The position numbers were made by a program, and so were the translations under genes. From Gigantopelta aegis (Eukaryota; Mollusca; Gastropoda; Neomphalida; Peltospiridae), in assembly GCF_016097555.1 (NCBI RefSeq), contig NC_054709.1, positions 28,047,294 through 28,111,293 of the forward strand: 64,000 nt of DNA, read 5' to 3'. This document shows positions 24,611 through 33,600 of the stretch, piece after piece. Numbering within the stretch: the first letter of the stretch is position 1; the number at the start of each line of letters is the position of its first letter. Under the pieces are notes generated by a model. That model had not been told where the DNA came from and did no database searches. It was given only the letters and a program-made list of their open reading frames with translations.

Positions 24611-27600
24611 CTGAAAGAGAAAAGTTACAGAATGTTTAATTTATTCACAACCCAGCTTACCGTTTAGTCAGTGTTACAGAATGTTTAATTTATTCACAGC
24701 ACAGCTTACTGTTTAGTCAGTGTTACAGAATGTTTAATTTATTCACAGCACAGCTTACTGTTTAGTCAGTGTTACAGAATGTTTAATTTATTCACAGCAC
24801 AGCTTACTGTTTAGTCAGTGTTACAGAATACTTAATTTATTCACAGCACAGCTTACTGTTTAGTCAGTGTTACAGAATGTTTAATTTATTCACAGCACAG
24901 TTTACCGTTTAGTCAGTGTTACACAATGCTTAATTTATTCACAGCACAGTTTACCGTTTAGTCAGTGTTACAGAATGCTTAATTTATTCACAGCACAGCT
25001 TACCGTTTAGTCAGTGTTACAGAATGTTTAATTTATTCACAGCACAGCTTACCGTTTAGTCAGTGTTACAGAATGTTTAATTTATTCACAGCACAGCTTA
25101 CCGTTTAGTCAGTGGTTACAGAATGTTTAATTTATTCACAGCACAGCTTACTGTTTAGTCAGTGTTACAGAATATTTAATTTATTCACAGCACAGCTTAC
25201 TGTTTAGTCAGTGTTACAGAATGCTTAATTTATTCACAGCACAGCTTACTGTTTAGTCAGTGTTACAGAATGCTTAATTTATTCACAGCACAGCTTACTG
25301 TTTAGTCAGTGTTACAGAATGCTTAATTTATTCACAGCACAGTTTACCGTTTAGTCAGTGTTACAGAATGCTTAATTTATTCACAGTACAGTTTACCGTT
25401 TAGTCAGTGTTACAGAATGTTTAATTTATTCACAGTACAGCTTACTGTTTAGTCAGTGTTACAGAATGTTTAATTTATTCACAGTACAGCTTACTGTTTA
25501 GTCAGTGTTACAGAATGTTTAATTTATTCACAGCACAGCTTACTGTTTAGTCAGTGTTACAGAATGTTTAATTTATTCACAGTACAGCTTACTGTTTAGT
25601 CAGAGTTACAGAATATTTAATTTATTCACACCTGAGCTTACTGTTTAGTCAGTGTTACAGAACGCTTAATTTATTCACAGCACAGCTTACTGTTTAGTCA
25701 GTGTTACAGAATGTTTAATTTATTCACAGCACAGCTTACTGTTTAGTCAGTATTACAGAATGTTTAATTTATTCACACCTGAGCTTACTGTTTAGTCAGT
25801 GTTACAGAATGCTTAATTTATTCACAGCACAGCTTACTGTTTAATCAGTGTTACAGAATGTTTAATTTATTCACACCTGAGCTTACAGATTAATTAGTGG
25901 CTATTGGCAAAAGAAAAGAAAGTAAATATTGTTTTAAGAAAAAAACCCCAAAGTTTATATTGTTTAATAACATCACAAGAACACATAGCGATTTCATACC
26001 AATAACATGTGCTTTTGTGCACAATAACGGAGTAGACATTTTGGGTATATAATATTAACCACAAGCTTTTCTAATGCATCTACATGTCCAAATATCATAT
26101 CCAGAACGTCAAGTGATGATGCTTTTTATGTACATCCCCGTTTATTTACACTGTATTCTGAAGCTGCAATGTCTTTACCGTTATTTGCCCCTTCTTCTGA
26201 AAATGGTCCTAATACATACTTTTCCTATAATCCTTACAATTAAATTTGAAACATACTTATTAATAATAACACTAAAAATGCATATTTTATTTTGAATTAT
26301 TTTTTGGTTCTTAAACAATACAGCTCAATAAGACAAATTACCAATATAAAGTGACGATGTGGTGTGGGTCACTGGTTGGAACGAGAAATAGCCCAATGGA
26401 CCAACTGACGGGGATCGATCCCAGACCTACCACACATCAGGAGAGTGCTTTACTACTGGGCTGCATCCAGCCCCCATCCCCCTCCTAATTTTAAAAGCAA
26501 TACTCTACATATCTAAAAAAGATACGTAAAATAAAATTGTTTGCACTGTGCGGCCTGAAATTCGTGTCAGGTCCGGTCAGAGGATTTTATGTTCACATTC
26601 AGAACAAGCTGTTGTAGCGCACGCCTGTCATGGGCACAGGTGTCGACTTTCGCCGGCTCCTCCGTCCAGGACAAGAAAAGGGTTTAGGAGGATGGGGTTG
26701 GGAGAGGGGATCACATGCGCTGACATGTGCAAGGGAGCACAAGCAGCCCGACTAGGGTCAGTAGCGCGTGGGTTTTCTTCTTTTTTTGGGGGGAGGGGGG
26801 CTATTGAACTTGCAAATGTCCCATAGGATTAGGTCCAAAAATGAAATAGTTTGTGCAATTTAGTAAGGTAAAATTTTTAGGCATAATTTGTAATGGTTCA
26901 TCAAAAGTACAACTGGAGCTGTTCGAGTTATTAGACTTAGACGGCCGAAATTTAGTTGCTGCTGCTGGAACTGACACTCGTGGACACACCAACCTTTTTC
27001 AATGTACTGTTCGGGCACCAGATCTTGTCTGATAATCACAGACTGCTGCCCAGTGACAGCGTACGTACGGACACACCAACCTTTTTCAATGTACTGTTCG
27101 GGCACCAGATCTTGTCTGATAATCACAGACTGCTGCCCAGTGACAGCGTACGTACGGACACACCAACCTTTTTCAATGTACTGTTTGGGCACCAGATCTT
27201 ATCTGATGATCATAGACTGCTGCCCAGTGACAGCGTACGGACACACCAACCTTTTTCAATGTACTGTTCGGGCACCAGATCTTATCTGATGATCATAGAC
27301 TGCTGCCCAGTGACAGCGTACGGACACACCAACCTTTTTCAATGTACTGTTCTGGAACTAGATCTTGTCTGATAATCATAGACTGCTGCCCAGTGACAGT
27401 GTACAGACACACCAACCTTTTTCAATGTACTGTTCGAGCACCAGATCTTGTCTGATGATCACAGACTGCTGCCCAGTGACAGCGTACAGACACACCAACC
27501 TTTTTCAATGTACAGTTCGGGCACCAGATCTTGTCTGATGATCATAGACTGCTGCCCAGTGACAGCGTACGTACGGACACACCAACCTTTTTCAATGTAC

Positions 27601-30600: not shown

Positions 30601-33600
30601 AACCTTTTTCAATGTACTGTTCTGGAACCAGATCTTGTCTGATAATCATAGACTGCTGCCCAGTGACAGCGTACGTACAGACACACCAACCTTTTTCAAT
30701 GTACTGTTCTGGAACCAGATCTTGTCTGATGATCACAGACTGCTGCCCAGTGACAGCGTACAGACACACCAACCTTTTTCAATGTACTGTTCGAGCACCA
30801 GATCTTGTCTGATGATCATAGACTGCTGCCCAGTGACAGCGTACAGACACACAAACCTTTTTCAATGTACAGTTCGAGCACCAGATCTTATCTGATGATC
30901 ACAGACTGCTGCCCAGTGACAGCATACAGACACACCAACCTTTTTCAATGTACTGTTCAGGCACCAGATCTTGTCTGATGATCATAGACTGCTGCCCAGT
31001 GACTGCATACAGACAGACAAACCTTTTTCAATGTACTGTTCAGGCACCAGATCTTGTCTGATGATCATAGACTGCTGCCCAGTGACTGCGTACGGGTCAT
31101 CGTCAACCTGTCGGATCTGGACATGCTCATCATCATCGCGGTTGTCGCTGAAGTCAGCAGGAGGGGGAGGTGCATTGTGGATGTATTCCATCTGAGGCTG
31201 GGGTGGGGCCTGGCTTGTCACTGGTGGGGGTGGAAGGGGTGGAGAAGCTGAAAAACAGAACAGATGGAAGAAATGTTTTATGTTAACGGCTGTCGTGTCA
31301 ACACATTTTAATTATGGTTGGATGGTTTCGGAGATATGGTTAAAGACCATGCAGATAATTTGGAGAAACCCCCGCTGCTGTCATATACTGGGCTAGTATT
31401 TTTGATCAGCAGTTTTATAAACAAAATCCCACAGACAGAATAGTACATAGTACACCAATGGGCCCATTGATGGGGATTGATCCTAGACCAACACGGATCA
31501 ATCCTAGAGCAACAGGAGTGTTTCTGGCAGTTGCAGCCCCTCTTATGGAGGGTAAAATTACATAGGGTACCCTAAAATCATGGGATACTAATGGCTAAAA
31601 GCTTTATATATTTATATAGACTTAACCAAAAATGTTTAGCAATTTGTACTTAAATAAAATACAACTTGTGACTTAAAATTAAAATCGGACACTGGATATA
31701 ATTGAGGAATCATTTGTCAGTATAAGTAAAAGTTGATTTTCAATACAAAATGAAACGTGTGAGTGTCACATCATTAAATGGTGCTTGGGGATCCATACAC
31801 AAAAACCTGAAAATTGTCAGTAACATTTAATGCTAATGTTATGATATCATTGAATTATCTGCATAAAAACAAATGTTACTAATGTCATATTATTGTACTA
31901 CATGAATCTACATAAAAAAAAAAATTCTGATGATCATAAAGTGAATAACATGTGCACAGTATAGTACATATTATATTTTCCAATAATCGTAAAGTGAACA
32001 ACATGTGCACAGTGTAGTACATATTATATCTTCCAATAATTGTAAAGTGAACATGTGCACAGTGTTGTACATATTATATCTTCCAATGATCATAAAGTGA
32101 ATAACATGTGCACAGTGTAGTACATATTATATCTTCTAATGAGCATGTGAATAAAGTGCAGTGTTGTACATATTATATCTTCCAATGATCATAAAGTGAA
32201 CAACATGTGCAGTGTAGTACATATTATATCTTCTAATGAGCATGTGAATAAAGTGCAGTGTAGTACATATTATATCTTCCATTGATCATAAAGTGAATAA
32301 CATGTGCACAGTGTAGTACACATATATCTTCCAATGATCATAAAGTCAATAACATGTGCAGTGTAGTACATATTATACAGACTTTGGAAGTGTGTGTGTG
32401 TGTGTGTGTGGGGGGGGGGGGGGGGAGCACTGACAGATCAGGTACAAACTCTATATCAGATTTTGGTTACAATGGCAAACATTAATGTGTAAAAAAAAAA
32501 AAAAAAAAAAGCTCACAAGTTGGGGGGGGGGGGGACGTGCCCTCCCCCTTCCCACAGGCCTGTTATAGCTTCTAATGATCATAAAGTGAATAACATGTGC
32601 ACAATGTAGTCAGTCTGTTGCTTCTGGGCAATAGAAAATAAAACAATACTTTATAGAAAACATGGCAGAGAAGGACAGGTATTAATTGCAGGTGAGCAGA
32701 AAATATTAGTAGAAAAGACGAGACGAAACAACAGGCAAATCTTTCTAGGTGCCTCGGAGAGTGTCCAGGGTAGATGTGCTTGAACACTTAATGGATGTTA
32801 AATTCAACCCCTGCAACTACCCATGGCAACTGGCAATGCTGTGGTAGTTTTAGTTCTCCACGGCAACTGGCAATGCTGTGGAGGGTTTAGTTCTCCATGG
32901 CAACTGGCAACACTGTGGAGGTTTTAGTTCTCCACGGCAACTGGCAACGCTGTGGAGGTTTTAGTTCTCCACGGCAACTGGCAACGCTGTGGAGATTTTA
33001 GTTCTCCACGGCAACCGGCAATGCTGTGGAGGTTTTAGTTCTCCATGGCAACTGGCAATGTTTTAGTTCTCCATGGCAACTGGCAATGCTGTGGAGGTTT
33101 TAGTTCTCCACGGCAACCGGCAATGCTGTAGAGGTTTTAGTTCTCCATGGCAACCGGCAATGCTGTGGAGGTTTTAGTTCTCCAAGGCAACCGGCAATGC
33201 TGTGGAGGTTTTAGTTCTTCACGGCAACCAGCAATGCTGTGGAGGTTTTAGTTCTTCACGGCAACCAGCAATGCTGTGGAGGTTTTAGTTCTTCACGGCA
33301 ACCGGCAATGCTGTGGAGGTTTCAGTTCTCTACGGCAACCGGCAATGTTTTAGTTCTCCATGGCAACTGGCAATGCTGTGGAGGTTTTAGTTCTTCACGG
33401 CAACTGGCAACGCTGTGGAGGTTTTAGTTCTCCATGGCAAATGGCAATGCTGTGGAGGTTTTAGTTCTTCACGGCAACCAGCAATGCTGTGGAGGTTTTA
33501 GTTCTTCACGGCAACCAGCAATGCTGTGGAGGTTTTAGTTCTTCACGGCAACCAGCAATGCTGTGGAGGTTTTAGTTCTTCACGGCAACCAGCAATGCTG

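Follow-up and report, generated by a model that had tools for sequence, protein, structure and literature searches.

The last intron of the abl interactor gene (Abi) of the gastropod Gigantopelta aegis, a deep-sea vent snail, contains a minisatellite of 49 units, each of which repeats the end of the preceding coding exon together with its 5' splice donor. It lies in a window of 64,000 nucleotides, the whole stretch of DNA that was analysed, at positions 28047294-28111293 of contig C11 (35.4 Mb) of the 1.149-Gb G. aegis assembly. The first donor is the one joined in the annotated sequences compared, all later donors lead to one truncated product, and exon-end arrays that repeat a donor recur at 6 of 110 exon matches surveyed in the genome. 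We consider it likely that the array is a tandemly duplicated exon-junction segment whose later donors are silent decoys, that it belongs to a recurrent class, and that exchange has altered the coding end of the exon. The array would have arisen when an 83-bp segment lying across the exon-intron junction was duplicated in tandem, and would have grown to 49 units inside the intron, presumably by slippage or unequal exchange, leaving the exon and the first donor outermost; given that position, the array would normally be removed as intron. Donor 1, being nearest to the acceptor of the exon, would probably be chosen through exon definition, and the other 48, predicted to be about equally strong, would lie downstream as silent decoys. 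The locus would thus be one of a class in G. aegis in which arrays take in between 9 and 90 nt at the 3' end of the matched exon together with the donor, which they repeat, and exchange between array and exon end probably changed the coding end. The gene and the array have the following coordinates in the window, a slash marking the splice point:

24447-56220, minus strand: Abi coding span (spliced exons; protein identical to isoform X5)
56220-56098, 51340-51173, 50150-49962, 48219-48018, 45762-45571, 31247-31023 and 24610-24447, minus strand: Abi exons
31023-31247, minus strand: Abi coding exon with its 3' end in the array, sixth of the seven joined for X5
24447-24610, minus strand: last Abi coding exon, encoding the SH3 domain
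26982-31095, minus strand: exon-end minisatellite of 49 units, each with a donor AAAAAG/GTTKGT (Tandem Repeats Finder (TRF) and motif count)
31011-31093, minus strand: unit 1, made up of 71 nt from the end of the authentic exon and 12 nt from the start of the intron (boundaries read by eye; donor at 31022)

Splicing of the seven minus-strand exons gave an in-phase frame of 421 codons including the stop, and the resulting protein was identical over all 420 residues to G. aegis abl interactor 1-like isoform X5 (NCBI). Matches to the Abi_HHR (Pfam PF07815) and SH3 models identified it as an abl interactor. Isoform X2 includes two additional exons, located at about 39.8 kb and 35.2 kb in the window; the array-bearing exon, called exon 7 in a first-pass annotation made from the letters of the DNA, is number six of those joined for X5. 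The intron downstream of this exon is 6.4 kb long, and the one upstream 14.3 kb in X5 and about 3.9 kb in X2.

TRF reported a single array at 26982-31095 with a period of 83, 49.0 copies, 91% matches and a score of 6451. The motif AAAAAGGT was found 51 times on the minus strand of the window, 49 times within the array, and nowhere on the plus strand of the whole window; all 49 array copies run on as GTTGGT (38) or GTTTGT (11). These counts agree with the first-pass annotation, which had described the array as a repeated Abi exon end with its donor, and the in-phase spliced gene equal to X5 bears out its placing of the authentic end of exon 31247-31023 in the first unit in transcript order. Its unit lengths of 83 and 87 bp apply to 46 of the 48 donor spacings (83 bp, 33 times; 87 bp, 13 times), the other two being 74 and 85 bp. 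The proposed make-up of exon end, donor and intron nucleotides also held, but not the sizes given for it (60-70 exonic and about 20 intronic nucleotides), which by eye are about 71 and 12. Mean pairwise identity among units was 0.894, with substitutions in 24 of 83 columns, and the longest invariant run, 17 columns, covers the donor (shuffle P 0.031). Exact internal repeats of 528 and 497 bp, at shifts of 757 and 829 bp, indicate multi-unit turnover; with tandem units of tens of base pairs and turnover visible in units and internal multi-unit duplications, the array qualifies as a minisatellite. Units 1 and 2 are identical over 63 exon-derived alignment columns and the GTGCCTGAAC variant is confined to these two; when the whole unit is compared and gaps count, unit 1 is slightly more similar to units 8 and 18 (0.931) than to unit 2 (0.92). 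The number of units is that of one assembly and may be off. When 252 bp of the array were searched against the 1.149-Gb assembly, all 23 matches fell within this array, although a DNA search of this kind may miss copies. No Rfam match at gathering score was obtained over 24000-31400 of the window, and the predicted folding of two units (-50.5 versus a mean of -45.1, SD 4.0, in 100 mononucleotide shuffles) was a weak signal. The window holds thirteen arrays with a period of at least 25, which cover 20.2% of its length and 36.2% of the Abi span. One of the 14 Abi exon edges lies inside an array, compared with a mean of 2.8 in circular shifts, 81% of which place one or more edges there; with this array cover, an exon edge inside an array is not improbable here.

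Each of the 49 donors was joined in silico to the SH3 exon and the products were translated. Donor 1 yields the 420-residue protein and donors 2-49 (48/48) yield one identical 379-residue protein lacking SH3. The second donor is 83 nt beyond the first, a frame shift of 2, and read-through meets a stop in unit 2:

30982-30984, minus strand: TGA stop in unit 2, at which all products of donors 2-49 end

As this TGA precedes any other outcome, neither the length nor the number of units alters the later-donor protein. Truncation before SH3, one of two outcomes foreseen in the first-pass annotation, is what all 48 later donors give; the other, insertion of repeated peptide, is rejected because the TGA comes first in every case, and the distinction drawn between in-frame 87-bp and frame-shifting 83-bp units makes no difference to the product. 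The copy-number-variable splice switch built on these outcomes is mostly not supported: for the assembled sequence a change of protein among later donors is excluded, and what is left of it is a conceivable binary choice between full-length and SH3-less Abi, the ratio of which might conceivably depend on array copy number. By the 50-55 nt rule for nonsense-mediated decay, transcripts from donors 3-49 are predicted to decay, their stop being 125 nt or more upstream of the junction (42 nt for donor 2, 125 for donor 3, 3988 for donor 49). The exon's own frame is interrupted by a stop in 18 of the 49 units, and retention of the units as coding modules is rejected on this count together with the uniform truncation by later donors. 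A cryptic exon in each unit was also discarded: the best acceptor in the array (31002, pyrimidine fraction 0.65) would leave a 20-nt intron, and other AG sites there have pyrimidine fractions of at most 0.53 versus 0.53-0.88 for the six authentic acceptors. Protein searches with the exon plus read-through frame gave nothing at threshold, only 15 candidates sharing words, and the array-end frame gave nothing at threshold among 132 candidates.

X5 and X2, the two sequences that represent the annotated G. aegis clusters, both join donor 1 to the SH3 exon, YIEK running directly into VVAIYDY. The X2 cluster comprises four sequences, of which one was compared, so that two of the five annotated sequences were examined. 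A similar exon end meets a VVAIYDY-like start in 116 of 120 listed proteins (two of the 120 from G. aegis), making the donor-1 exon end the conserved one. A simple score ranks donor 1 with the weakest (5.49 versus 5.9 for the 38 GTTGGT copies), and in a U1 pairing model the GTTGGT copies reach -8.4 kcal/mol versus -6.0 for donor 1, yet it is donor 1 that both annotated proteins use. Where alternative splice sites are flanked by large introns, the sites nearest across the exon are preferred, according to the available text of PMC9225289. With large introns on both sides of the Abi exon, such a preference would predict use of donor 1 and a neutral array, and is the probable reason for it.

The coding end shared with the array is unusual among molluscs. 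The comparison used one row per named species, 39 of 120 listed, unnamed rows, duplicates and non-molluscs being dropped. Over the 21 array-shared residues G. aegis was the most divergent of the 39 in pairwise comparison (0.27, next 0.42; residual z -4.5), and the SH3 and N-terminal parts of its Abi showed average divergence. A scan of 121 alignment windows placed the minimum exactly at residues 346-366 (z -4.15), with the seven lowest windows for G. aegis all within residues 331-369. TGP occurs in 48 and W in 40 of 50 relatives, and G. aegis Abi has neither. This pattern suggests that exchange with the array rewrites Abi coding sequence; lineage-specific relaxation may be an alternative source of the divergence.

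Arrays at other exons were surveyed at 110 matches, 70 to Ras and 40 to RRM domains, a small and partly hand-picked sample. The Ras rows (70 of 152 matches) comprise the 30 best, nine with internal stops being kept, and 40 hand-picked ones that are mostly stop-free; the RRM rows (40 of 127) were picked likewise, most very long single frames being left out. The sample includes the paralogue-like pairs L016/L018 and L047/L048; L048 has one distant partial copy and was left out of the count. The 3' edge of the exon lay inside a tandem array repeating the donor in 6 of 110 cases and the 5' edge in none, besides a 3-bp touch at the exon start of L073 that was not counted as exon-containing (6 versus 0, p 0.031; 6 versus 1, p 0.125, with the touch). 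Donor motifs in the six were counted by pattern, and the counts for L111 and L118, whose arrays reach or come near the end of the fetched stretch, are lower bounds:

L055, closest in PDB to Rab-5A: 103-bp units, 4 donor motifs and, in a further unit, the donor with one exon base changed
L047, closest in PDB to Rab-27A: 140-bp units, 6 donor motifs
L118 (C9:57473020-57473730), U1A-like: TRF period 54, at least 5 donor motifs
L084, SRSF3/SRSF7: 44-46-bp units, 3 donor motifs
L075, M-Ras/R-Ras2-like: periods 61 and 46, 2 donor motifs
L111, RRM gene given no name by the search: 44-bp units, at least 6 donor motifs

Later units in L075 and L084 have lost the donor, which argues against a need for it. 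In L118 the 54 nt that lead to the second donor keep the frame and contain no stop, so that repeated peptide of 18 residues could be inserted there. Arrays with a period of at least 20 covered 2.0% of the 60 bases before and 6.3% of those after exon matches, and 2.6% before versus 11.2% after at 151-270 bases. For 50 loci with longer flanks, downstream cover peaked at 15-16% at 100-300 bases and fell to about 4% past 750, and upstream cover was 1-2.5% within 300 bases and 2.7-6.7% farther out. Among the 110 loci, 15 had arrays within 250 bases downstream only, 4 upstream only and 1 on both sides (p 0.019; 14 versus 4, p 0.031, with one paralogue pair merged). These figures suggest that exon-end arrays recur in the G. 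aegis genome, on the donor side of exons.

Abi carries further repeats, one of them in the same intron as the donor array:

24624-25886, minus strand: second array, 49-bp units with 26 sense AATAAA and 24 CTGAC
24104-24439, minus strand: 3' flank of Abi, holding four decayed copies of the last coding exon's end with its stop codon

The 49-bp array stops 13 nt short of the SH3 acceptor. Just upstream of it is an acceptor-like site at 25900 (pyrimidine fraction 0.82), use of which would, by eye, add three residues and then reach a stop ahead of the AATAAA and CTGAC signals. The copies at 24104-24439 are a second exon-end duplication within Abi. Upstream of Abi and divergent from it, window positions 57629-57880 (plus strand) hold what we take to be the first exon of ribulose-phosphate 3-epimerase.

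The donor-side bias could mean that exon ends are hot spots of minisatellite birth, a process acting at 5' splice sites or exon ends, and not chance, starting the duplications. We regard this as a possible but tentative account. The excess of array cover after exon matches, its peak at 100-300 bases downstream and the surplus of downstream-only loci speak for it, but selection against arrays at the acceptor side, with its branch site and polypyrimidine tract, could yield part of the bias. The 110 matches also come from two families, were partly picked and include paralogue pairs, the edge count loses significance once the 3-bp touch is included, domain edges only approximate exon edges, part of the downstream flanks may belong to 3' untranslated or intergenic sequence, and in a gene as rich in repeats as Abi arrays hit exon edges by chance. 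A stronger version, in which exon 3' ends with 5' splice sites are minisatellite birthplaces, arrays spread from them into the intron because the first donor always wins, exchange rewrites the last codons of genes such as Abi and a minority (U1A-like) add peptide repeats through a later donor, seems to us doubtful. A regulatory splice switch, in which some transcripts use a later donor or retain the array to make SH3-less Abi in the manner of IFI6, appears improbable. Donors 2-49 score as strong as donor 1 or stronger, the donor falls within the longest invariant run of the unit, and IFI6 itself uses two downstream repeat donors to make three mRNAs (available text of PMC4526556); against this stand the identical truncated product of all later donors, the decay predicted for donors 3-49, the use of donor 1 in both cluster representatives and the empty search with the exon plus read-through frame, though only 15 candidates shared words with that query.

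Polished long-read assemblies can distort tandem arrays, and the exact 528-bp copies could be consensus effects, but that the array is an assembly artefact is very improbable: its units differ in an ordered fashion and the same design occurs in six further genes of the assembly. The available text on a published chromosome-level assembly, taken as this one, gives PacBio reads with a minimum length of 8000, longer than the array (PMC7895826). Least probable of all is that the last intron is a composite in which the donor array serves as a U1 platform restraining the 26 AATAAA, the balance setting the proportions of full-length and SH3-less Abi. The 49 donors are followed by 26 sense AATAAA, 24 of the 25 spacings being 49 bp, and it counts in favour that, in the available text of PMC5499120, U1 keeps intronic polyadenylation signals of human, mouse and Drosophila transcripts from being used, and introns show selection against AATAAA. 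The repeats, however, account for the numbers without function, and the two arrays are 1.1 kb apart. Several points weigh against silent decoys and an exchanged exon end, which we nevertheless prefer. Use of donor 1 is read from annotation, in two of the five annotated sequences, and the 17-column invariant run also fits constraint on the donors. A second, weaker conservation low at residues 37-69 (z about -2 to -2.7) lies outside the array, and the divergent exon end may predate the array, G. aegis being the one neomphalid genome covered.

In human IFI6 the downstream donors are reported to add in-frame residues. This gene (G1P3, 6-16) was reportedly described by Turri et al. in 1995 as having a minisatellite that supplies multiple splice donors; in the available text of PMC4526556, two downstream repeat units serve as donors. 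The Abi minisatellite likewise begins at an exon end and its units supply splice donors (49/49), but its unit is 83 bp and mostly exon, its class recurs across genes in G. aegis, and use of later donors is not seen in the annotation. As later donors only truncate (48/48), the Abi array is classed as a donor-bearing minisatellite and not as an IFI6-type coding switch. Intron gain by tandem duplication also involves a duplication crossing an exon-intron boundary with splice signals copied; in Abi, however, the copies are numerous, on the donor side and inside an existing intron, and no new intron in formerly exonic sequence is annotated, X5 and X2 having no array junction other than donor 1. Several 5' splice sites between large flanking introns are likewise the setting of the proximity rule as PMC9225289 presents it in the available text, whereas Abi offers 49 natural copies in near-equal local context, differing mainly in position. 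The MSY2 minisatellite upstream of human DDX3Y resembles the Abi array in having units of about 100 nt tied to the transcript processing of one gene, but lies in the distal start region, has three or four copies and has donors downstream, not in every unit (available text of PMC3039753). Apart from IFI6, no array with a donor in every unit was found in the available text of open-licence literature on donor-bearing or boundary minisatellites (including PMC2915984, PMC2572611 and PMC3039753). Beyond the anatomy shared with IFI6, three features seem new: that such arrays recur, that they favour the donor side and that the coding end diverges.

The Abi array amounts to a natural experiment in splice-site choice, with 49 donors in near-equal, exon-like context in one intron; as the simple score places the annotated donor among the weakest, the choice would depend on position. 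Should the donor-side bias extend to the whole genome, it would be a sign of either mutation or selection acting asymmetrically at exon ends, for which we know of no name. A true bias would also provide a route by which the turnover of non-coding repeats changes the ends of conserved proteins.

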